Of a DNA stretch of 64,000 nucleotides, positions 4,111 to 63,439 are shown piece by piece. The position numbers were made by a program, and so were the translations under genes. The notes under the pieces are model-generated. The model made no database searches and was not told where the DNA came from. It saw only the letters and a list, made by a program, of their open reading frames with translations. Within the stretch, counting starts at the first letter, position 1, and every line of letters begins with the position of its first letter. Source of the stretch: Selaginella tamariscina (taxonomy: Eukaryota; Streptophyta; Lycopodiopsida; Selaginellales; Selaginellaceae); the NCBI GenBank assembly GCA_003024785.1, contig PUQB01000244.1, positions 124,001 to 188,000 of the forward strand. The letters run 5' to 3'.

Positions 4111-4151
4111 CAAGTTTAAATTTATTAAAAACTATACGCGTATAGAGAAAC

Positions 4152-4682
4152 TCAAATTTTGGCGCGTCTGAGCTCGAGTTTGGCAATGGTTTGGAGATGA
4201 ACGTCGTCTGGCCCATCGGCAATTCTCAGCGTTCGAGCCCTGCCCATAAATGTGCCAAAACAGTATCTGCGCTCACCCCTGCCGCACCGTGCACTTGTAT
4301 AGCAGAATCCAACACTCTCAGTGCCACACGAGGAGCCACAACCCTGTAGAAAAACTCTATAAACACACACGCACACGCACACGCACACACACACACACGT
4401 GTATGCTCTGCATATATACACACGCAAACACACACTATAATAGTACAGATACATGTAATGTGTATTACCTTTGCCATGGCTAAAGCACCTCTTACAACTT
4501 TTGCTCCATGGTTGTCGAGCTCATTGGCTGCATGGAGCACCAGTAATCTTGCTTGGGTAATCTCTAGCCGGCACTGTTCAAAAATAAATAAGTACCTCAT
4601 ATTTGTGTAGATCATGGAAAAAATACAATATTATATTCTTATAAATATAAATGTAAAAACTATACTAATGTGTGTATGTATG

Positions 4683-4728
<46 letters not shown>

Positions 4729-5212
4729 GGGCGACTTCAGATGCAAAGGCACCCTGCTGAGCGATAAGTTTACCGAATACTCTACGCTCTGTTGCACGTT
4801 TAACCATCAACTCTAAAGCTCGTTCTGCTGTTCCAATCAAGCGCATACAGTGATGCAATCTTCCTGGACCAAGCCTTCCCTGTTAACCATTAAGCATATA
4901 TAAATTCAGTCTTTTATTAATTAATCATGTTTTAAGTATATAATAATATGCATGATAGTATTATGTAGATACACACACACCTACCTGTGCGATTTCGAAA
5001 CCACGGCCTTCTAACCATATAATGTTCTTCGCAGGGACCTTGACATCTTTGAAAACTATTTCCGCGTGTCCATGTGGTGCATCATCAAATCCGTACACCG
5101 TTAGAGGCCGTACGATCTCCACCCCAGGAGTCTTTATGTCCACTAATATCATCGATTGCTGCCTGTGTAGAGGTGCATTCACATCTGTCTTTCCCTGTAC
5201 ATATTTCAGCTA

Positions 5213-5287
<75 letters not shown>

Positions 5288-5911
5288 CTGAAGATGATGT
5301 TGATAACTCTCATATGTGCACACGTAGGAACAGATCTATATGCGTAAGAACAGATGTATATGGTAATTACCATAACTATTAGAACTCGGCATCTAGGATC
5401 CATAGCTCCACTAGTCCACCACTTTCGACCGTTTATAACATAAATTTCTCCCTCTCTGGTTAAACATAAGAAGTGTCAAATATGTATACGCATATATCAA
5501 TAATGTACACACACACAAACACACCTTGTTATTTTACATTCGATGTTGGTAGCATCTGAAGAAGCAACTGCTGGTTCCGTCATAGCAAAGCCCGAACGTA
5601 TCTCCCCTTTTAAAAGCGGCTTCAACCATGTTTTCTGCTGCTCTGGACTTCCGTATCTCAGCAAAACCTGCTCGAAAATTGTTATTGCATATCCATCTAT
5701 CTATATACTTAACACTAACACGCATAACGCATGTGTACGTACATGTAAATATTCAGATAAACATGTTTACCTCCATGTTTCCAGTATCAGGCGCACTGCA
5801 GTTGAACACTTCAGGAGCCCACAAAGAACGGCCTATTCAAACGTATCATTTGCTATATTAGTACAATAATACACATTATAATATTATATACTTGTATGTT
5901 GAGCACGCACA

Positions 5912-5942
<31 letters not shown>

Positions 5943-8856
5943 ACACACACACACATGCGTATTATGTATGTCATGAATATTATGACTAATATTAATATAG
6001 ACCCATTATTTCGCAAAGATGGCCATATTCCAAGTTGCTAAGGCCTGCTCCGACTAGCTTGTCGAAACTATGTGTTTCATCTGCATTGAATAGTATCTGA
6101 GAAGCCAGAGCTGCACTATCGGCCTACAACAACAAAATATAAACGTAAATAAGTATATATATTTATATATATCCCTCCACACATATACGCACACACATAC
6201 GGGGATCCATAGGTTCCAGAGCCCTTCAGCTTGAGCACGAGTTTTAAGCTCTTCCTGCAAAGGGTGAATAGTCCATCTGCTATCTGAACTTGCATGAGAT
6301 TCCAGAATATGTTCGTTGGGATATATGTATTTTTGCATAAAAGCCGTTAATTGTTCTTGAAGTTTCAAAACTCTGTCTGATGGAGCTAAACCCAGACTTT
6401 CTTCCTATAAAAATAAAATATTAACACACACACACACACACATATAGTAATATGAATGTACACTTAACTAGTTTGTGTGTGTATGTGCGTGCGCGTGCGT
6501 ACGTGCGTGCTTCGTTATCATAATTCTATGTAAATTCTGACCGATATTTAGATGTGAAGGTGGAACATCTGGAATAATAGATCCACCGAGAACCAAGTTT
6601 AACGCACAGTTTGCTAAATAGCACGCAAATTCACCACTTGATTCTGCACGTTTTCCACCTGAAGCGTTCCCCTTAACAATAATAAAATAATGGTATCAAT
6701 TAACTGGGCATTATAATATATATATCACTGTGTGTATCTATGCAGTTATAATAAATAGGCTTACCAGTAAGAAGCGATTGTATACCCCTGCAGAAATCGC
6801 AGCTAGACGGAAGAGCGATAAAACAAGGTAAAAGTTCCAATTTGGTCCAGGCCATGGTACATTCTGAATAATCACATTCAATACACACATATCCATGAAG
6901 TGAGATGTTGTCTCACTTCATGACTATGTCAGCTGATGAAGTGAGGGTCATTCTCACTTCATGAACCAGACACACACACACATACACACACACACAAATA
7001 CACAAACGCACACAAATCATAAATACAGACATAAATATATATGTATAGAAAACAGATTAAATTAATATGCACGTATAATAGCTAAGCTATGCATGCATAT
7101 AAACAGAGACAACTTACAGCTTCTGCACAATAAGTGGCTATATACTCTGTTTGTGATGGAAGCCCCTCCGAAGGAACACCATTATCAAATCCATAATAGC
7201 CTGGACCCTTGCTCTCTCGATTATCAATAACAAAGGGCTGTATTCAGAAAACAAAAGTATTTAACTTAAATCAAAAGAATAAGTTATCGATAAACATACC
7301 ATGCAGTTGTAAGCAACATCAGCCATCCGATTTCCAAGTGTTGAAAGTTCCCAGTCCAATACGGCTAACACACGAGCCTGCCAAGACGCGCGTGCGTGTG
7401 TACTTAATAATTGTATGTTTGTGTATATCACTCACAATACAGACGTACATACATACATACGCACACACATCATATACAAGACCTCTGTGGGATGGAAGAC
7501 GAGATTATCGATCTTAAAATCACCATGGACTATTCCAGCACAATCTGCACGAGCATCTTCAGCAGGTATGTTATTCTTTAGCCACGTAGCGAGCTTCAGC
7601 ATTGCAGGATCTGGCTTAGGTTTTCCCTCAGCCGTTGATGCAGCATACTGCGCTGACCACCTCTCAATCTGTATATATTTTATAAGCTTTACATATTAAA
7701 ACATAGGATGAACTACGTATGATATTGAATACTACATATAATATAAGTGGTGTGTCGTGTGTGTGGTGTGTGTGTGTGTGTTTTGTTAAATGGTATAAAA
7801 ATACATTTAATAATGGTTAGAATTATATGTATATACCTGTCGCTTACAATAGTGTTCACGACGACCGTATTTTCCTAACCCAATACCGTTTACATCCACC
7901 TTGTGTATGGCCGCTAGAGTTTTTACCATAGCATTATATATCTCCTTGCGTTCTTCAGCCCTCAAGATCTAATAGGACAAACAATTGATCAATAATTTAG
8001 AGAGAGAGAGGGAGGAGGGAGGGAGGGAGGGAGGGAGAGAGGGAGGAGGGAGGGGGGAGGGGGGGAAGAGAAAGAGAGAGAGGGAGGGAGCGAGAGAGAG
8101 AGAGAGAGAGCGAGGGAGGGGGGAAGGGGAGGGAGAGAGAGAGAGAGTACCTTCAGTGCAGGGTCAAGGAATACACGACCTTGCACATACTCCATGACAT
8201 AAAATGGAGTACCAATTATACTCGGATCATTGCATAAACAAAACACTTTAGGTACTGGAACACTACCTTCTTTTCCTAGCCCTGCCAAAACCTGTTCAAG
8301 AAAACATATATAAACGTGTATATAGGTTTCATGTAGTGTATGGGCATTATAGAATCACATATAGACGAACTATAAGCATATATATGGTATATATGTATGA
8401 GAGAGAGAGAGAGAGCATAAGTTTGTTATAATCATCACATACGAAACTATGGATAATTTAATTCACATAAATTATTTAGTTAAATAAATTCAATATATAA
8501 ATATACCTGATATTCTCGTTCGACAGCATGGGCTGATTGAAGTAGTTTACCAGGAGGCTTTTTACGCAGCACATAATACTTAACACTGTCTTGGTTCTTG
8601 GCTTTTAAACGATATGTGGGGTTTGATTGTCCATGCCCAAACTGCAAATATAATCATTTAACATATACATGTGTGTGTATGTGTACATATTTATATACGT
8701 ATACACACATAATTCTAGTACCTGTGAAACAGTGAGCTTTGCAGGAGCCTGAGGAAAACCTTCTACGAATTTATGGAGATAATTAAGTAGTGAGTTTTCG
8801 TCCAGCTTATGAACCTCTTGTACGGACTCCAGCATATCAGATGTCATAGTAGCCAT
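4152..8856 (-). CDS. Two-domain acyl-CoA dehydrogenase with N-terminal APH-like kinase (IBR3/ACAD10-11 type)
   Basis: Eighteen exons run from ATG at 8856 to TGA at 4152. Exons: 8722-8856, 8507-8641, 8151-8291, 7837-7968, 7483-7669, 7300-7377, 7118-7237, 6765-6865, 6542-6671, 6201-6404, 6003-6123, 5771-5832, 5525-5667, 5371-5457, 4985-5194, 4727-4879, 4469-4573, 4152-4343. The N-terminal half is APH/kinase-like: [19 protein letters not shown], catalytic HGDFKIDN and [10 protein letters not shown]. The C-terminal half is acyl-CoA dehydrogenase: [63 protein letters not shown]. In Arabidopsis the family member IBR3 acts in peroxisomal indole-butyric acid breakdown; animal ACAD10/11 phosphorylate and then process 4-hydroxyacyl-CoAs. 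In the last exon one base seems missing in a GGG run (about 4239), and the conserved end [15 protein letters not shown] continues in the next frame. The protein would end in AKI, not the usual SKL. Confidence 0.93.
4684..4726. repeat. TA microsatellite
   Basis: About 20 TA units ending directly at the donor of ACAD exon 16 (minus strand). Confidence 0.95.
5219..5284. repeat. Composite CT and CA microsatellite
   Basis: CT units followed by CA units in an ACAD intron. Confidence 0.95.
5911..5955. repeat. Poly-C run followed by CA repeat
   Basis: About 18 C in a row, then AC units, in an ACAD intron. Confidence 0.9.
6894..6962. repeat. Twin hairpins with the same arm sequence, in an ACAD intron
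   Basis: CATGAAGTGAGA (6894-6905) pairs perfectly with TCTCACTTCATG (6911-6922) across a 5-base loop. A second hairpin follows, with ATGAAGTGAG (6936-6945) pairing with CTCACTTCAT (6953-6962) across 7 bases. Both use the same arm sequence, so all four arms can pair with each other. They lie in the intron between exons at 6765-6865 and 7118-7237. Confidence 0.8.
8001..8147. repeat. Polypurine tract (GA/GGGA)n
   Basis: About 147 bases that are nearly all A or G on the plus strand, including runs of GGGA and GAGA. In the ACAD transcript this is a polypyrimidine tract starting directly after the donor at 8150. Confidence 0.85.
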
Positions 8857-9499
8857 TGACCCTTGTTGTAATTAAGTAAAAACAAATTAGTACTCTATTC
8901 TAAATACATAAACACATATACATAATACTGCAGAAAGTATGCATATATTACATACTACAGTTTACCAAAACAACTCTAGTATCACTTATATGGATTGCAC
9001 AAGAAAAAAAGTTATCAGTTCATATATTCACACACACACACACATAGAGACTTGGGTATAACATGTATGGACGACACATGTACACACACTGGGTGTTACA
9101 ATACACGCGTATAATTAAGTACCATATAACTGCAAATTACATATTATGTGTATATATCGGTGTATAACACACAAAGTACATAATTAAATGCAAGATAGAC
9201 AACATATAAACACTGAAAATGGATCACATATATAATATACAATTCATGAAATTACCCTTAATAACACACAAAAATTGTCAAATTAATAAATATTTTCTAA
9301 AAAATATCTAAGTATCTAATTATTTTCCGAAAAATCACTTACCCAAATGAATTACGAGCTTGGAAAATCCCTGTAAACGAATCTATGTGTAATTCGTTCT
9401 TACTAAAAAGTTTTAGGGTTTTCGAGTGTTTTAATTTAAGGGCATAAGGGCAATTAGGGTTTTTGCCCTTATTATTTAGGATTAAAATGCGCTAGTTGT
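8857..9499. promoter_or_regulatory. Divergent promoter region between the ACAD and LCMT genes
   Basis: The two genes start on opposite strands. TAGGGTTTT-type telo-box motifs occur at about 9412 and 9455 and again just before the LCMT coding region at about 9507. The stretch 9300-9450 probably holds both transcription starts. A possible ACAD 5' leader intron may lie in 8870-9340, but its ends were not settled. The remainder is AT-rich with CA repeats. Confidence 0.45.
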
Positions 9500-12169
9500 G
9501 CATTAGGTTAGGGTTTGTAAATGGCGGCGGCTCCTCGGCGAGCAGCAGCGCGGCGGCTGTGCAGGCGACTAATGATGATGCATCGCCAGCAAATTGTATG
9601 TGTGTGTATGTGTGTACGATGTGTATTTGCATGTATATGTTTGTGCATATGTGTGTATTGAGGTGTCTCTGATGAGATAAATTATACAACTTTCGTTCTA
9701 CTGAGCACCTGATGGTGTATGTAGAAATTGAGACCTGAACTGAAGAGATTTTTGTATTGCGCATCAGTAGAACATATATTCTATGGGCTTGGCTTTTTGG
9801 GTTCGATTATGATGATATCAAATCACATCCAACACTTGGACTGATTAATCTGTGATGGTATTCTGCAATTCTGAATCAACCCTGTATATAATTTTACGTT
9901 GTTTAGTATTGTATAAGTAGACATGTTATGAGAGAGAAACACTGCTTATGTCATTGTATATAGATATATCAGATGATGATGCAGTAATAACATCTTAGGA
10001 CACCTTCCTACATGGCTAGTTTGCCATGGATGAGAGTTAAACTGTTCCTGATGGTATAAACCATATGTATTTTGGATATCTCGAATGATGATTACCATTA
10101 TGAACGCTGAATGGTTATGCCATTTTGTGGATAATTTTGGAGACCTGAACTGACGGGATATAATCAGATGATGTAGTTTATATGCATTAGGAACTCGATC
10201 ATAAAAACATTATCTGAATGGCTATTTCATCGTGTGGAGACCTGAACTGATGAGTGGTAACTTTGATCAAATGATGAGACAGTAAAAACATCTTAGGACA
10301 CCTTCTTACATGGCTACTCTGCCATGAATGAGAGTTAAATTGTTTCTGATGATATCAACCGTTTGGCTCGATGATTAAAATAGTATATACGCTATACTGA
10401 TTAGCTGCTGATTCATTTTTTAATGAGAGCCTTTGCATAATTATAACTAATGTTCATCTGTTAATTTATTAATTATGGTTTCTAATCAGATCCTGTGTGA
10501 AGAAAGGCTACATGAAGGACAATTATGTGCATCTCTTTGTGAGAAGGCCTGTTAAACGTTCTCCACTAATCAATAGAGGTAGTTTTCTATTAGTAAATGA
10601 TTTAGTTTATTGTTTTTGTAGTGTGACTAGCTTTTCTATGCCAGGATATTATGCTCGGTGGGCTGCAATTCGCCACTTATTAATGCAGTTTCTGTCTACT
10701 ACATCCAGGAAGCAGATATTATCTGTGGGAGCTGGTTTTCGATACAACGTTTTTTCAACTAAAGGTGAGTGTTCTATTGATCTAAGTAGTGTGTTTCATG
10801 CATTATTAATAATGTTATGCTGGTCATTAACATAGGATGAAGGAAAAGCACCGGATTGTTTGTGGAACTAGACTTTCTAGAGGTGAGAATCCTTGATAAA
10901 CTGCATGCATATGCAGATACTTATACATACACGTATATATTCCACGCTTAACTTCTACAAATTTATTTGTTCTGGATGATGCAGGTCACGAGAAAAAATC
11001 GGTCATCCTTGGTTCCTGCGATGAAATGAAGAGACACCTGGGCTCTACCTCAACAATAATTCCTGGTATATATATCTTAGGTGTATATGTGTTTGTGTTT
11101 GTGTGTTTATGTATGTATATGTATGGATGGAGTTTCTGCAATGTGTTTGTTTATATTATGCGTTTCCGTTTTGTTGTTGAGTGTCTGCGATTGTGTGCTT
11201 GATATGTACAATTGCAGGGCTTTACGTAGGATCGTAATGCAGAGAAAGGAGAAATAATCAGTGAAAGTTACAAGCTATTTCCTTGTGATCTGCGAGATAC
11301 TCAGAATTTGGATGCTATTTTGAGAAAGCGGGCCTTGACACTTCGTAAGAGTGTGTGCGTGTGTGGGGTGTAAGATTGTGTGCGTGTGGGATGTTTATTT
11401 GTTTTTACTGAATTGTATTTATGTTTTCAGATTGCCAACGTTAATACTTGGGGAGTGTGTTCTGATATACATGGATCCAGATGACAGTCGTAGTCTTCTT
11501 CAATGGACTGCCGACAAGTTTTCTACTGCAGTATTTGTTTTGTACGAACAGGTATATTTATACCAATTTATACACGATATGACACATTAAATTGTTTATT
11601 TTTTAACACTTCGTTGTTTAGGTTCACGCTGAGGATGCTTTTGGACAACAAATGATAAGAAATCTCGAGGTACTTATCTAATCTTCTTTTTGTTATTTTT
11701 GTATTGTGTATTTATTTTGTTATACGGTTTTGTCAGAGTCGAGGTTGTCCTTTGCTAGGAATATTTGACACCTCCACCTTGGAGGCTAAGAAGAAGCGCT
11801 TCTTGGAGACGGGCTGGAAGGTATATTTATATAAATTCAATATATACATATGCATATACATGTATGTATATTATACATATGACATGCAGTTATTGAAAGT
11901 TTTCTAAGCTGTTTTGGTTATGCAGAGATCAGTAGCGTTGGACATGGATGAAATCTACAATCATCGTATAGATCCTGTGGAGAGAAGAAGGTATAATTTT
12001 TGTTCATGTAATTAACTAATTAGTATAGTATATATTAACTTCTTTGCTTTACAGAGTTGAGAGATTGGAAATATTTGATGAGTTTGAAGAGTGGCACATT
12101 ATGCAGGCTCATTACTGTGTGGCATATGGCGTTACCGATGACAGTGTATGTCTATGTGTGTGTGTGTCT

Positions 12170-12218
<49 letters not shown>

Positions 12219-12305
12219 TATGTATAAGAGACTACGAATACAAATGTGTTTATAATATATGTATTCAATGCAGGAATATTCGACAATTTTGGTTTTGGTA
12301 GTTGA
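9500..12305 (+). CDS. LCMT1: Leucine carboxyl methyltransferase 1 (PP2A C-terminal methylation)
   Basis: The product would methylate the C-terminal Leu of the PP2A catalytic subunit using SAM. Exon 1 (about 9520-9600) encodes AAAVQATNDDASPAN. Further exons: 10490-10578 (KKGYMKDNYVHLFVRRP), 10645-10764 (SAM site region, QILSVGAGF), about 10834-10881, 10985-11065, about 11219-11350, 11431-11551 (LPTLILGECVLIYMDPD), 11622-11669 (AFGQQMIRNLE), 11737-11820, 11926-11990, 12055-12146 (LEIFDEFEEWHIMQAHYCV), 12274-12305 (GIFDNFGFGS, stop). Order and splice sites match LCMT1. At least five single-base or small frameshifts occur, mostly at homopolymers (about 10738, 10857, 11228, 11327, 12145), and no in-frame ATG is seen before the exon 1 frame. 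Either the consensus is faulty or the gene is decaying. The long first intron holds the snoRNA cluster. Confidence 0.85.
9666..9748 (+). ncRNA. Box C/D snoRNA (18S guide, U59/snR54-like)
   Basis: TGATGA (C box) at 9670 and CTGA (D box) at 9740, with TCTC/GAGA terminal pairing. An internal CTGA (D') lies at 9701. The 13 bases CAACTTTCGTTCT before D' are an exact complement of AGAACGAAAGTTG in 18S rRNA. The fifth position before D' points to an A in that stretch, the site known for yeast snR54 and animal U59. The D-box guide GAGACCTGAA recurs in two units downstream. rRNA sequences are from memory. Confidence 0.75.
9799..9882 (+). ncRNA. Box C/D snoRNA with 25S and 5.8S guides
   Basis: C box ATGATGA at 9809 and D box CTGA at 9871 are closed by a strong stem, GGGTT and GAT (9799-9807) with ATC and AACCC (9875-9882). 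D' CTGA is at 9841. ATCCAACACTTGG before D' exactly complements CCAAGTGTTGGAT of 25S rRNA. ATTCTGCAATT before D exactly complements AATTGCAGAAT of 5.8S rRNA, and the fifth base points to a G. Two perfect rRNA matches make this one of the most secure units in the cluster. Confidence 0.82.
9965..10058 (+). ncRNA. Box C/D snoRNA, U15/snR13-like, copy 1
   Basis: C box ATGATGA at 9973, D box CTGA at 10048, terminal stem TATATC/GGTATA. CATCTTAGGACACCT exactly complements AGGTGTCCTAAGATG of 25S rRNA (15 bases), the target region of U15 in animals and snR13 in yeast. The D' box after the guide is degenerate. A close relative lies at 10263-10358. Confidence 0.8.
10077..10160 (+). ncRNA. Box C/D snoRNA (probable 25S guide)
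   Basis: C box ATGATGA at 10085, D' CTGA at 10107, D box CTGA at 10150. A 7-bp terminal stem pairs TATCTCG (10077-10083) with CGGGATA (10154-10160). TGGAGACCTG before D fits CAGGTCTCCA, which I recall from plant 25S rRNA. The target is less certain than for the neighbours. Confidence 0.7.
10193..10255 (+). ncRNA. Degenerate snoRNA, partial copy of the preceding unit
   Basis: It shares CATTAT..CTGAATGG and GGAGACCTGAACTGA with 10077-10160, and ACTC/GAGT can close the ends. Its C box is eroded (GATCATA). It is probably a decayed tandem copy. Confidence 0.45.
10263..10358 (+). ncRNA. Box C/D snoRNA, U15/snR13-like, copy 2
   Basis: C box ATGATGA at 10271, D box CTGA at 10346, stem TTGAT/ATCAA. 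It keeps the CATCTTAGGACACCTT guide of the unit at 9965 exactly, while stems and flanks have diverged. This indicates a retained duplicate, not an assembly repeat. Confidence 0.78.
12172..12215. repeat. TA microsatellite
   Basis: About 20 TA units in the last LCMT1 intron. Confidence 0.95.
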
Positions 12306-49850: not shown

Positions 49851-52173
49851 TCTAAGGGTTATGGCATGATAGCCCACATAGTGTCATATGAAGGTTAGAC
49901 GTCACATGATACAACACTCGAGACACACCCTTTGAGGTTGTGTCATGGGTTTGTCACCAAGGAGTTGGATACTTTAGCAAATAAGCATACTTGTGCTTCA
50001 CTAGGATGCTAAGCCTTGGGCATCCTTTCAAGGGAGGTTAAGACTCGTAACTAAGTGTGCTTTGGCACACTTGGCTAAGGAGTGTTCTTCTTAGGATATA
50101 AGGGTTGAACAACCTAAGCTCATTAGAAAAAGCCTTTTTATAAGGCACTCGCAATGTCATGTATTTAAGGTTATTTAAGCTTAACCTTAGGGAGTTTGCT
50201 TAGCAAAACACTCATGTTCACCTACGACACATACTCATGTCCTTACTAAGTACTAGCCCTAGGTCTAGGGTATGACTTGGTCACTCAAACCCTTAAGGGT
50301 TAGTTGTGATTCAAGATACCCCTTGTCACCCTAAAGGAATTGCTCTGGGATGAAGGTGATTTCTCAAGGGGTAAGTGATGATGCCTTATCTTTATCACGG
50401 GGGCATGTGTGAGACACATCTCATTTGTGGGGTTAAGGCATGAACATGTCTAGGTCTACTAGGATAGGATCATAAAGTCTACTCAGATATCCTTTAGGGT
50501 TTAAGGGATGGTCATTCGAAGGGACTTAGGGTAGGACTCTAAGTCTTCTGTTTAACTAGTCAAACTCTTGGGGTTATCTTAGAAAACTTAGTATTGCCCA
50601 CGCAGAAAATTGATGCTGGAAGGCCACTTTGCAGCCACATGTTAACCCTCCGGGTTAAAACTCTAATAATATTTAAAAACAAATGAAAATATATTATTGA
50701 ACAATCTTTTTTATATATAAGTGCATGTATAAGTGTGTACATAACACTATTAATCCACAAATGAATATGTATATAACAATGTAGCAATCCAACAGGAGTT
50801 TTGCGAAAGTCATATATGTGAAACCCCCCCCCCCCCTCTCTATATATATAGCACTAAATATATATATACACACACACTTGTAAATCTCTCTCTCTCTCTA
50901 TATATATATATAACCCTTAATCCCACTTAATCAGTGTTGCTTTGCATGTCTAACCAAGTTGATATGTAAAAAAAAGCTTATACATGAGTAAAGTTTCTAT
51001 CTATGTTTGATATCTTGTAGTCAATCTATTCTGCTTCACACAGGAGTATGCAGTGTGACCCATACTTTGCTCTACGTTTAAGACTTTAAATATACTTTGA
51101 CAAGCACACATGGAGTGTATTTCATAGACAAGCAGATACATATGCTTTTGTGGTATACACATTGGTATACTTTTGTGGTATACAAATTTTTCTCTTGACA
51201 ACTAGCTAAACCTCAAGTGGCACATATGGATAGTATATACTTTAAAATATACAAATAAACAAAAGAATATTCTTGAATATTCGCAATGTCATTTAATTAA
51301 TTGTAGTTTTTAAATTTTTTTAGAGAATATTAAATCGTGTGTTCTTGAAACTAGGAAATTTCTAATACATTATAAATTTAGTTTATAAATAAAAAAGGCT
51401 TGTTATAATATATTTATAGTTACTACGTCTACATGTTTAATTTAATTTATTTGATCATTTGCACATCATCTCATTGTCATTGCTTGTAATTTTGCCCATT
51501 TCAAGATTATTTTCCTACGAGTCAATTAAGCGGTGAATCAATATACGAGTCAGTCGTTGTGTGTGTGTGTTCCTGCTGTTCTAGTTTGTAGTTTTCCATT
51601 TATTTAATATATGTTTTGTGTATGTGTGATATTATATTATAAAGTGTACATACTGTTGAATAATATATTCCTAGTATGTTGTGAAGATTCGTGAGTGTAT
51701 ATGAACATTGCATATATGTGGTGTGTGTGTGTGTGTGTGGTTTATAATATACGTTTTGTGTAGTGTGTGTGTTTGTGTGTCTGTACACGCCTTCCTGCTC
51801 CGGCTTTTAGTGATATACTGTATGTGTACACATGTATGTATGCACTACCCACCTAGCCTACTGCACTTATTTGTATATGCTTTGTGTTCGTCTGTGCAGG
51901 CATATGTGTATGGGTAGGTCTGTCTGTTCTTTGGGTTATACACATTTCTCTCTCTCTCTCTCTCTCTATATATAATATATATACACACACACATAAATAC
52001 AATTGTTTTGTACAATTATATACGGCTTTTATATATGATGGTTGGTGTATGCGGTCCAACAAATTGTATCGAATATGCAGCAAACCCAAAATTGGAGTAT
52101 CACACACATAATAAATACATAAGTTACGTTTAGTTGTATACATATCCAAGCGTGTGTGTGTGTGTGTTTCCAG
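49851..52173. other. Repeat-like DNA without a recognised gene
   Basis: 49851-50560 contains many short AAGGGTTA and CCTTAAGG-type words and resembles the neighbouring repeats. 50820-50900 holds C-run, TA, CA and CT microsatellites. 51540-52160 is GT/TA-rich, and from about 52062 it matches the region 60290-60410 (GST-flanking sequence). Confidence 0.5.
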
Positions 52174-52515
52174 GTGTATGATGCTGGTACGCATCATATG
52201 GAAATCTGGCGTGGAGAAGGCAAAGGCAATAGAAGACATGAAAGAGAGTATGAAGCTGGTGGAGGCAGCCCTGGCAAAGTTATCGAAGGGAGGTCCTTCG
52301 GGGGAGACAAGATGAACTTTGCTGACGTGGGGCTCGGAGCGTTCATAAGCTGGTTTGATGCATATGAGACTGTTGGTGAGTTCAAGCTTCCCGGCCTGGA
52401 CGAGTGCCCGCACTTTCACAAGTGGATGGATGCCATTGGTAAGGAGGAGGCCGTGAAGAAGTCAACTCCGAGCCCCGATAAGGTTACCGAGTTTATGCAT
52501 ACACTCAGGAGCTAG
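52174..52515 (+). pseudogene. Glutathione S-transferase last exon (tau-like), copy 1
   Basis: After a TTTCCAG acceptor the exon encodes a C-terminal GST helical domain: KAKAIEDMKESMKLVEAALA, GGDKMNFADVGLGAFISWF, then DAYETVGEFKLPGLDECP, KWMDAIGKEEAVKKS and a stop. FADVGL..FISWF and the late KEEAVKKSTPSPDKV resemble plant tau GSTs, which join glutathione to xenobiotics. The N-terminal thioredoxin-fold exon with the catalytic Ser was not found upstream. The frame shifts once near 52293 (CCTTCGGGGG) and once near the exon start. It is probably an orphan exon, though a distant first exon cannot be excluded within this repeat-rich stretch. Confidence 0.7.
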
Positions 52516-57872: not shown

Positions 57873-59895
57873 GTAAGAACGTTTATATGATGAGCATCAT
57901 AATATATAACATGAAAATTATTAAGTACATTTTACGAATCAAACCACAATACCACAAGCTCACTTGCCATATACGTGAGCTTGGTGTAATAATCTGAAGA
58001 AGGAGATTCCAGCCCTTGTGTCCAGCAATATTGAAGTAGCACTAAAGAGTTTACTAGGTCGAATAATGAGTTTATGACTAACCAACAGTAAATCTTACAA
58101 TTTGTGAATTCGTGATGAATCTTCAAAAATTTCTGACGAATTTCTTCATTTTGATTCATGGTGAACCTTTAAGTTCACCACAAATCAATCTTCATTGTCA
58201 TGATTCTAAAGTCGTGATAAACAATAAAATATATATATTAACTTTATTCAAGGTTGGCTCACCTCCTCAGCTCACTAATTCACCTCACCTTGGGAGAATG
58301 TCACACTCCTCCATTTTGCCACCCATCCGTTTCATTCGTTGTTGCCATGTTACAGACTTACAGCATAAATATTACTTTCAAGTTAATGATAGATATACAA
58401 TACTATTATGGCCTGGGTCTTGCGGAAGGCAGTTAATATGGACACCAGCTCCCACCACAAGAGCTCTTCCCCGATCGCCGTCCTGCTAAAAATGGTAAAC
58501 GCTTCATTAGAAGACGTGTGAAACTAGGACTAGGGACAGAAAGCAAAGAAATGAGTGTATACCAGCCGCTTCGAAATAAAATTGCCTTCCAAACTTCTTC
58601 CATATTTCTTTCCTTTTGCATACCCATGCTTTGGGAATACGTATATACTATCAAAAAGAAATTTTATACTGACATCATCTCCGAGGATGCTCTGAGGAAC
58701 TCCTTCAGCATCTACTAGAAAATACATGTTTAGTCCCTCATATCAATAAACAGAATCATTTCTGGCACCATGGAACCCCCCTGTGAATTTAAAATACTGA
58801 TGAATGTGTATGGAAGCATCTAAAAAACACACACACACTCACACCTCCACTGGCATTGGCGGCTGAATTCTCCAGAAGTGTGGTCATGCTTATGAGAAAT
58901 ATTCTAAGTTAAAAATCCATTAAAATGTAATATCTAAGTTAAGAAGAACTGATCACCTTTATAAAGGGATTGTAAGGACGATAAACTGCTTGTCCCTTGA
59001 TAATCTCATCTATGTACGAGCGCAGGTAGAGAGAGACCTGGTAAACAGACAGAAAGACAGAAAGACAGACCTGAGGATTCACACGGATGGCGCGTCGGAT
59101 TTTGTCACAAGGGGAAATTGATCATGCGGAAGACATCAAAAGAATGCAGAGACTGAATCTAAATGATATACACCTATATTATAATGTGGTTTCATAATTT
59201 TCTTATTTTGCCACATTATAAAACCTCTTTTATTTAAGAATGTGAGAAGAACACGAATAAATTAGGGTTTAGAATGGTTTAGGTAAATCTCTGCCGTTGT
59301 TTTTAACGTCCTGCACCCAGTGTTCAGTTATTTTCTTCGTAAGATTACTAAGTAATTGTGAACAGTTATAAAAAATTTGATTTTCATTAAACTTAAATTA
59401 AGTTTATTGTGAACAGTTATAAAAAATTTGATTTTCATTAAACTTAAATTAAGTTTAGGGTTTAAGTTGTTGACGTTGAAAATAAATTTAACAAAACTAC
59501 CATGAAAATACTATGGATATACGCAATACTGGTATTATCCTAAGTCTTAAATAGAATGTTCTTTTGTATTTGTTAAAGTTTAATATGAAAAATCAAGCTT
59601 TATAATTTTATAAATATAAACATTTGTAAAATTTTATTTAAAAATTAATTTGATACGCTAGATTAAATAATAAAAAATATTTAACACAATATTAAGATGT
59701 ATAAACGTATGGAGTGTAAACTGTGTGTGTTCTTATGTTATAAGTGTCATAAGTTGTATATAAACCAGCTATATTACATATGCTTACGTAATATATACAC
59801 ACCGTTTTAAAATAGTATATTCTTAAATGCAAATTGACACGCACACAATTCATACATATTGTATACATTGTGTTACTAAGAGTATGTGTTTGCAG
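57873..59895. other. Intergenic stretch with small repeats
   Basis: A 51-bp unit is repeated twice in tandem at 59355-59456 (ATTGTGAACAGTTATAAAAA). GGTGAACCTTTAAGTTCACC at about 58161 is a short palindrome, and AGACAGAA repeats lie at 59043-59070. No gene was recognised. Confidence 0.65.
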
Positions 59896-60224
59896 GTCTT
59901 GTATGCTGGTTTACGCATCATAAGGAAATCTGGCGAGGAGAAGGCAAAGGCAATAGAAGACACGAAGGGGAGTATGAAGCTGGTGGATGCAGCCCTGGCA
60001 AAGTTATCGAAGTGAGGGCCCTTCTTGGGGGAAATAAGATGAACTTTGCTGATGTGTCGCTCAGACCGTTCATAAGCTGGTTCAATGCATATGAGACTGT
60101 TGGTGAGTTCAAACTTGCTGGCCCTGACGAGTGGCACAAGTGGATCGATGCGATTGGTAAGGAGGAGGCCGTGAGGAAGTCGACTCCGCGCCCCGTTAAG
60201 ATTGAGTTTGTGCATACAGTTTAG
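59896..60224 (+). pseudogene. Glutathione S-transferase last exon, copy 2, decayed
   Basis: After a TTTGCAG acceptor it encodes LRIIRKSGEEKAKAIEDTKG, MKLVDAALAKLSK and then TGA, where copy 1 has GGA. Downstream it still matches copy 1: KMNFADVSLRPFISWFNAY, ETVGEFKLAGPDEWHKW and a late stop at 60222. So it has a nonsense change and at least one frameshift. No N-terminal exon was seen. It is an orphan duplicate of the exon at 52174-52515. Confidence 0.72.
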
Positions 60225-61985: not shown

Positions 61986-62095
61986 CCATCTTGGCACCAT
62001 TGGTAATCAGTTTTTAAAGAAAATAAAAATATTACTCGTATACATTGCGTATGACGTACGATTATTGAAACTGCATTAGAATATACTGCAAGTAT

Positions 62096-63259
62096 ATGCG
62101 TGTTTTATGGCCACTCCAGTTCTCAAGCATGACTGTCTTGCTCTTCATAATCAATTCCGTGTGTTGTGCCTTAGAAGGATGGATAGTCACAGGAAATATT
62201 ATAACACGTACACCTCCATGTGAAGATCTGTGTTTCAGCATTCTAGGAGACAATAGCAATCCAGGAGATTTAGTAGGCCTCTATGATATACGGGAATCAA
62301 CAGCTAATCAACGTTGGAGGTATGAGACGCTCTCAATCGCCTCAAGAACATCACAGTATCCTCAATTGTGCATGTCTACCTCGTTATGCAACTGGGTCGT
62401 GGGAAATGACTCGAGGGACATGGAAATCGTGAGCTTGAGAGGAAATGGATGTCCAAGCAATGGTCTCAATCTCAATGGATCAAACTCGGTGTCTCAGAGA
62501 GTCTTTCTTGGCAAGGGAGAGCAATATGTGTTAAGCTTTCAACATGGCAAAGGCTCGTGCAATGGGAAAGCTGTGAGTGGGAACTTAGAAATCTCCAAGC
62601 AGGTTAATAAACATGTTGAGTGTGCATCCATTTTTTTTGTAGTTCAAATAGTCACATATATATTATTGTATTTGTGTAGAGTCTGATCCCATGGCGTGTA
62701 TGCACAGGTTACATACTTTACGTCCTCGGACAACGGCACATGTAAGATGGAAACCGTACAGTTCAACTCAAGTGGTACAGGTGAAGTAGATATTACATTT
62801 CGTGGTACCCGCGGTGACCAAGGGTGTGGACAAGTTATTGCAAATGTTGGAGTTAACAAGAGAAGTTCAGTAGCTACAAATCCATCTGTTTTAACCGGAG
62901 ATGATGAGTCCTCATGCATGGTTAATTAGTGGAGTGACAATAGTTTCATTGGTTGCTGTTGTTACTATACTACAAGGTTTGGAAGAGGTATGTACTCAAG
63001 AAAGCATCAAAAGACATAAGTCTTCCATGGTTGAGAAGGTATACGTTCCGGGAGATCAAGTTCATGACGAACAACTTTAATCATTGTCTTGGAAAGGGTG
63101 GCTTCGGCACGGTTTTCTTGGCTACAACATCTTCAGGAACGAAATATGCTGTCAAAATGTTCGAGAAAGAAGGCACAGATTTTCAGATTGAGCTTGATGC
63201 ACTCGGAAGAGTTCATCACAGATGTATTGTGGAATGTCACGGTTATTCCTTGGATGAAG
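62096..63259 (+). pseudogene. Receptor-like kinase, truncated after the kinase N-lobe
   Basis: The start MRVLWPLQFSSMTVLLFIIN is a likely signal peptide. A Cys-containing extracellular region of unrecognised type follows (CEDLCFSILGDNSNPGDLVG) across exons 62096-62602 and 62708 on. A hydrophobic segment (SGVTIVSLVAVVTIL, about 62935-62980) is a likely membrane helix, with a frame change around it. The kinase N-lobe reads RYTFREIKFMTNNFN, glycine loop LGKGGFGTVF, YAVKMFEK with the ATP-binding Lys, and a Glu-bearing helix FQIELDALGRVHHRCIV. It then meets a donor GTATAGAC and CT repeats, and no HRD or DFG region follows. It looks non-functional as read. Confidence 0.72.
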
Positions 63260-63439
63260 GTATAGACAAACTCATCCATCTCTCTCTCTCTCTCTCTCTC
63301 TAATAAACACACGCACAGCAATAACTCACAAGGGTTGAGACCGGATCTTAATACCTTCGCCACCTTGCTGCAGTCATGCCAGCTCACGGAAACAAAGCCA
63401 TATGTACTTTCTATCTGCTGAGATGGATTTCCATGTTGG

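Follow-up and report, generated by a model that had tools for sequence, protein, structure and literature searches.

The locus and its features

The DNA analyzed here, hereafter called the window, is a stretch of 64,000 nucleotides from Selaginella tamariscina (assembly GCA_003024785.1, contig PUQB01000244.1, positions 124,001 to 188,000 of the forward strand). It carries seven box C/D small nucleolar RNA (snoRNA) units on the + strand at 9665-10431, all of which lie within intron 1 of LCMT1, a PP2A methyltransferase gene. The units are found on the sense strand of the host, in a single intron between LCMT1 exons 1 and 2, and the 3' end of the cluster falls 58 nt short of the intron acceptor. 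In the original prediction, six units (five good and one degenerate) were placed at 9666..10358 in the first intron of this gene. These six units are present as described, and the first-intron position agrees with the exons readable here. The 3' end of the cluster was corrected to 10431, as a seventh unit, U54 (10365-10431), scores over its Rfam cut-off. The features of the locus are as follows:

9412..9516, + strand: three telo boxes (TAGGGTTT, the reverse of AAACCCTA), directly upstream of LCMT1 exon 1
9521..9599, + strand: LCMT1 exon 1 (approximate), with AVQATNDDAS in its translation
9600..10489, + strand: LCMT1 intron 1, about 890 nt, bounded, as judged by eye, by GT at 9600 and AG at 10488-10489
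9665..9749, + strand: unit 1, snoZ159/U59 (snoR59); Rfam RF00160, 48.5 bits, cut-off 39
9803..9880, + strand: unit 2, snoR31-like D' and SNORD96-like D in one RNA; Rfam, below cut-off
9965..10058, + strand: unit 3; Rfam RF00353, 40.4 bits, cut-off 45 (resemblance only)
10078..10159, + strand: unit 4, snoZ159-like; Rfam RF00160, 38.0 bits, cut-off 39
10161..10256, + strand: unit 5, degenerate, with ATGATGT as the C box and weakly pairing flanks
10265..10356, + strand: unit 6, apparent duplicate of unit 3; Rfam RF00353, 38.0 bits, cut-off 45 (resemblance only)
10365..10431, + strand: unit 7, U54; Rfam RF00206, 45.9 bits, cut-off 40
10490..12305, + strand: LCMT1 exons 2-12, read by eye from translations

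Anatomy and statistical support of the snoRNA units

With C and D boxes, a terminal stem, and a guide in register, the units belong to the box C/D class. The C boxes of units 1-6 have 0 or 1 mismatch to RUGAUGA and their D boxes are exact CTGA; both boxes had been claimed for the good units. The boxes of unit 7 are non-canonical, as they are in the Rfam U54 consensus. From 5' to 3', the spacers between the units measure 53, 84, 19, 1, 8, and 8 nt. The pairing of the flanks beside the boxes, calculated without a shuffle control, amounts to -9.5 kcal/mol in unit 4, -8.5 in unit 7 (with its 3' flank placed two bases early), -8.2 in unit 2, -5.2 in unit 3, and -4.4 in unit 1, with weak values of -2.6 in unit 6 and -1.7 in unit 5. 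A terminal stem had been predicted for every good unit; it is present in units 1-4 (-4.4 to -9.5 kcal/mol), but in unit 6 it is weak. Whole-unit folds are only modestly better than those of shuffles (z -1.3 to -2.3).

Unit 1 and unit 7 are recognized by Rfam over the cut-offs of their families, with E-values for the whole window of 2.3e-6 and 1.7e-5, respectively. For four other units, E-values refer to a search of 1201 bases and are 2.3e-5 (unit 4), 1.6e-4 (unit 2), 3.9e-4 (unit 3), and 1.3e-3 (unit 6). All four are under the gathering scores of their Rfam families, and unit 2 reaches the threshold of neither SNORD96 (34.6 bits, cut-off 43) nor snoR31 (31.1 bits, cut-off 44). No Rfam snoRNA match was obtained for unit 5 up to E 10. 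In the covariance search, named as a check in the original prediction, unit 1 and the added U54 are thus above the cut-offs, units 2, 3, 4, and 6 match below them, and unit 5 is unmatched. Conservation in relatives, which the original prediction had tied to refutation, was addressed indirectly, by way of the Rfam models and the Arabidopsis sites.

The clustering was assessed with our own C/D scanner, which accepts a C box with at most 1 mismatch, an exact CTGA, and a stem. On the + strand of the window, 8 matches were found, and 5 of them lie inside 760 bases at the cluster. In 30 dinucleotide-shuffled windows, the mean was 3.2 matches and the maximum 8, and never more than 2 fell inside 760 bases. 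Units 2 and 7 were missed by the scanner and both rest on Rfam; the match in unit 5 used a CTGA 5 bases upstream of the D box named here.

Outside the cluster, the scanner gave 3 further + strand matches and 3 - strand matches in the window. One minus-strand match (63133-63219) was rejected, as it has no Rfam match up to E 1 and lies opposite a kinase-like coding stretch. An extra RNA in the 84-nt spacer (9881-9964) was also rejected: the z of its fold is -1.2, 21 of 200 shuffles were equally stable, and no Rfam snoRNA match appeared up to E 10. Additionally, 9684-9704 and 9764-9784 form an imperfect inverted repeat, in which a stretch 3' of unit 1 is 76% complementary to the D' guide region of that unit, perhaps by chance.

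Complementarity of the guides to rRNA

In each guide, the target nucleotide was taken to be the one facing the fifth base before the D or D' box; 13 guides were tested, and the D guide of unit 7 was left out. Working copies of the yeast rRNAs, which had been compared with yeast methylation sites, served as the target. The 111 Arabidopsis sites given in Table 1 of PMC8053127, a source available in part, were transferred to yeast by means of local offsets and a matching base. In this way, 100 sites yielded 119 candidate positions, and 11 sites were unplaceable.

A position equivalent to a methylated Arabidopsis nucleotide was put first by 8 of the 13 guides (the D' guides of units 1, 2, 3, 6, and 7 and the D guides of units 2, 4, and 5), for 6 sites in all, which sustains the earlier statement that the units mostly have an rRNA-complementary guide. 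Among 260 shuffled guides, 8 had a known site as their top match, with a maximum of 1 per set of 13, and the same was true of 2 of 156 sequences upstream of CTGA elsewhere in the window. Repeated guide copies are not independent; when the D' guides of units 3 and 6 and the copies in the D guides of units 5 and 6 are dropped, 5 of 9 remain, with a binomial estimate of 4.5e-7.

The D' guide of unit 1 finds its top match, of 12 bp, at yeast 18S A974 (Arabidopsis A978), while its D guide pairs over 8 bp with yeast 25S G1851 (Arabidopsis G1855) as the second-ranked match. The latter nucleotide is also reached by the D guides of unit 4, with 14 pairs including 2 G-U that none of 60 shuffled guides equaled, and of unit 5, with 10 bp equaled by 2 of 60 shuffles. 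In unit 2, the D' and D guides have their top matches at yeast 25S A2911 (Arabidopsis A2912) and yeast 5.8S G75 (Arabidopsis G79), respectively. The D' guide of unit 7 has its top match, of 11 bp, at yeast 18S G595 (Arabidopsis G599), and 1 of 60 shuffled guides equaled it. Using CCTA as the D' box of unit 3 and CTTA as that of unit 6, the D' guides of both units match 25S U2651 (Arabidopsis numbering) best. The D' guide of unit 4 has no known target as its top match, a listed site appearing at rank three.

These assignments can be compared with Table 1 of PMC8053127, as far as this source was available. SnoR59 is given there with both sites to which the guides of unit 1 point, whereas unit 7 points to the U54 site and units 3 and 6 point to a SnoR10 site. 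The two sites of unit 2 are assigned there to SnoR31 and SnoR39BY.

As a side observation, the D' guide of unit 4 (10090-10110) has its best pairing at yeast 25S C618, with 12 and one mismatch, or at C2844, with 9 pairs. These nucleotides are not among the listed Arabidopsis sites, and one of them may be a lineage-specific target of this guide.

Similarities among the units

Over 100 nt, units 3 and 6 show 86% identity, and their D' guides do not differ; GAGACCTGAACTGA, which comprises a D guide and the D box, is common to units 1, 4, and 5. One 25S guide in three units, together with the likeness of units 3 and 6, suggests that the cluster has partly grown by local duplication. The guides for G1855 and U2651 appear to be redundant copies, and at least the U2651 pair would stem from local duplication; for the common D guide of units 1, 4, and 5, the identity could equally be due to the constraint of fitting rRNA or to common descent. 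Because unit 5 resembles unit 3 as well as units 1 and 4, it is probably a copy that is chimeric or in decay. Its 5' part is like unit 3 around the C box and an ATGGCTA stretch, whereas its 3' part carries the D guide of units 1 and 4. The local alignment of unit 5 with unit 3 scores 36, reached by 0 of 100 shuffles, and its similarity to unit 4 was likewise reached by 0 of 100.

The host gene and its upstream region

The identification of the host as LCMT1 is upheld by its exon translations, joined by hand across frame breaks, which match human LCMT1 (3iei) with E 5.2e-59 and the Pfam family LCM (PF04072) with 61.4 bits (cut-off 22.3, E 1.4e-16). Two shorter host pieces gave no Pfam match up to E 0.001. 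The exons whose translations contain AVQATNDDAS and SCVKKGYMKDNY bracket the cluster, and we take the N-terminus encoded here to be like that of the Arabidopsis protein. The AVQATNDDAS frame of exon 1 contains no ATG back to the stop at 9493, and the ATG at 9521 is in another frame. The 3' end of this exon is uncertain: an in-phase GT stands at 9600, while a better-looking GTATGT at 9596 is out of phase. Judged by eye, the other LCMT1 introns have lengths of roughly 60-165 nt. From exon 6 to exon 12, the gene is conserved and its frame open.

Telo boxes are elements common to the promoters of plant ribosomal-protein and snoRNA genes. The one at 9412-9421 is exact to TTTAGGGTTT, and those at 9453-9462 and 9507-9516 have one mismatch to it and an exact telo octamer. 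None of 200 dinucleotide-shuffled windows contained three telo octamers inside 110 bases. No telo box lies inside LCMT1 intron 1, the nearest ones being upstream of exon 1. The three boxes suggest that LCMT1 may be under the kind of control seen in ribosomal genes, and telo boxes have been reported to occur in the promoters of genes that host snoRNA clusters in their introns (PMC3022908, in the part available).

Telo octamers are frequent in the entire window, also beyond LCMT1, with 12 of them compared with a shuffle mean of 2.2 and a maximum of 7 (200 shuffles).

Proposed function and alternative explanations

We consider it highly likely that the locus encodes ordinary guides of rRNA 2'-O-methylation, arranged as a seven-snoRNA polycistron in intron 1 of a telo-box-fronted LCMT1 gene, and this row of small RNAs very probably directs chemical marks onto rRNA. 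The anatomy of the units, their family matches, their complementarity to yeast rRNA, the identity of the host, and the telo boxes are read directly from the DNA. Transcription, dependence on splicing, processing, and methylation can be proposed as a series of steps. A single transcript would start at the LCMT1 promoter, and the seven units would be freed from intron 1 and trimmed to the C/D core that small nucleolar ribonucleoprotein (snoRNP) proteins protect. Fibrillarin would then be guided to 2'-O-methylate 18S A978 and G599, 25S G1855, A2912, and U2651, and 5.8S G79 (Arabidopsis numbering). Two of these six nucleotides, 25S G1855 and U2651, would be served by redundant guides. It is conceivable, though unlikely, that LCMT1 has joined the plant ribosome-biogenesis regulon, in which case one telo-box-driven transcript would give both the mRNA and guides for six sites, and PP2A activation and rRNA methylation would rise together in growing cells.

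Several points weigh against a host-driven cluster of rRNA guides. The region upstream of LCMT1 is without a convincing site II motif, the sole TGGGCY in 1 kb being at 8529, inside the coding part of the neighboring gene, and no TEF box was found upstream of LCMT1. In plant hosts of intronic snoRNA clusters, a telo box in the promoter is usually, though not always, accompanied by a site II motif. LCMT1 exons 3, 4, and 5 (10640-11070) have one frame change each, at single-base runs. The rRNA used as the target was a working copy from yeast, not from a plant. No listed site is put first by 4 of the 13 guides, namely the D guides of units 3 and 6 and the D' guides of units 4 and 5. The D guide of unit 1 has its known site, at 8 bp, only in second place, and its best score was equaled by 16 of 60 shuffled guides. 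The pairing score of the unit 2 D' guide was equaled by 29 of 60 shuffles, and that of the D' guide of units 3 and 6 by 12 of 100; as such scores are not rare, the weight of these guides rests on their hitting a known site. Moreover, units 3 and 6 have non-canonical D' boxes, which were picked with the target in view.

Genuine snoRNAs might instead come mainly from an independent polycistron that starts in or near the intron, not from spliced LCMT1 pre-mRNA. A site II hexamer, TGGGCT, indeed stands at 9784, in the part of the intron that separates unit 1 from unit 2; however, unit 1 lies upstream of it, a lone hexamer is weak evidence with 22 in the window, and the nearest telo boxes are upstream of exon 1, with none in the intron. 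We regard this source of the RNAs as quite unlikely. A proposal that is compatible with the snoRNA reading itself is that LCMT1 is a decaying copy whose locus has been kept as a largely non-coding snoRNA host. It would account for the frame changes in exons 3, 4, and 5, for an exon 1 without an in-frame ATG, and for breaks that are denser than in the neighboring gene. Nevertheless, the three changes stand at single-base runs, as long-read assembly error would give, the neighboring gene also shifts frame in 1 of 18 stretches, and the frame of the conserved exons 6-12 is open. The breaks are more probably due to assembly error than to decay, and we find it decidedly unlikely that LCMT1 is a decaying copy.

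Two further explanations deny the units a function. The degenerate state of unit 5, the weak flank pairing of unit 6, and the position of four units under the Rfam cut-offs could indicate unexpressed snoRNA pseudogenes left by duplication. This is highly improbable, given that units 1 and 7 are over their cut-offs, that the guides fit known sites, and that units 3 and 6 have the same D' guide despite about 14 differences in 100 positions between these copies. Single matches to motifs as short as the C and D boxes arise by chance (mean 3.2 per shuffled window), yet the probability that the cluster consists of chance C/D-like motifs is next to nil. The whole-window Rfam E-values of 2.3e-6 and 1.7e-5 speak against it, as do the occurrence of such clustering in 0 of 30 shuffles and the contrast between the guide controls (8 of 260 shuffled, 2 of 156 other sequences upstream of CTGA) and the 8 of 13 found here.

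Other features of the window

A neighboring gene occupies 4150-8870 on the - strand, head to head with LCMT1 and about 660 bp apart from it. Its product has an APH domain and also, with a score under the Pfam cut-off, an acyl-CoA dehydrogenase middle domain, and is presumably ACAD10/11 or IBR3-like. Among its 18 stretches read by eye, the last one shows a frame change. On the + strand, 52123-52515 and 59880-60224 are two similar stretches about 7.8 kb apart, possibly a tandem glutathione S-transferase pair; the former has a glutathione S-transferase C-terminal match just under the Pfam cut-off. A ricin-B-lectin-like stretch followed by a protein-kinase-like one, both under Pfam cut-offs, is found at 62069-63303 and possibly represents one lectin receptor-like kinase gene.

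Comparison with known systems

The closest relatives of the units are known snoRNA families. Unit 1 is like snoZ159/U59 (RF00160) over the whole model, including both guides, and the D guide of this family also occurs in units 4 and 5. Compared with RF00160, unit 4 is one bit under the cut-off and lacks the D' guide, and unit 5 is unmatched. According to an excerpt of PMC5122169, snoR59 is counted among recent innovations. Unit 7 covers the full U54 model (RF00206), with the D' guide to the equivalent of 18S G599, although it has 67 nt against 81 model positions. Units 3 and 6 cover the full model of RF00353 and have the same D' guide region, with 40.4 and 38.0 against a gathering score of 45. 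Unit 2 resembles snoR31 (RF01288) in its D' guide and SNORD96 (RF00055) in its D guide; unlike either, it joins both guides in one RNA, and both scores are below the cut-offs. On a small scale, guide duplication and recombination in plant clusters are illustrated by the redundancy of guides at two 25S sites and by unit 2, which has two sites.

With respect to the host, most plant intronic snoRNA hosts encode ribosomal or ribosome-biogenesis proteins, as stated in an excerpt of PMC4660826. In maize, 70% of the host genes of novel intronic non-coding RNAs (ncRNAs) encode ribosomal proteins (PMC6172812, available in part). In rice, the available part of PMC3022908 describes intronic snoRNA clusters as frequent and estimates about 31 intronic loci, of which 15 belong to ribosomal-protein genes whose promoters have a telo box and site II. 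From these proportions, other hosts form a regular minority rather than an exception. LCMT1 is not a ribosomal gene, as the original prediction had noted, but the rarity of such a pairing was overstated there, judging from the same parts of PMC3022908 and PMC6172812. No report of LCMT1 as a snoRNA host appeared among the matches listed, and a published case may exist in the rice, Arabidopsis, or Chlamydomonas cluster literature. A lead to SBI1 in PMC6172812 was rejected, as the word is used in the available part of that article as the name of a sorghum assembly, not of a gene.

If production of the guides is tied to the splicing of LCMT1, a growth-signaling enzyme would be coupled to rRNA methylation guides. 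Like intronic clusters of rice and other plants, the cluster has several units inside a single intron of a protein-coding gene, and telo boxes upstream of the host. It differs from them in having LCMT1 as the host and in that a site II motif was not found upstream. The locus thus adds a cluster of seven units, in a host that is somewhat unusual, to a type of snoRNA cluster that is well known in plants.
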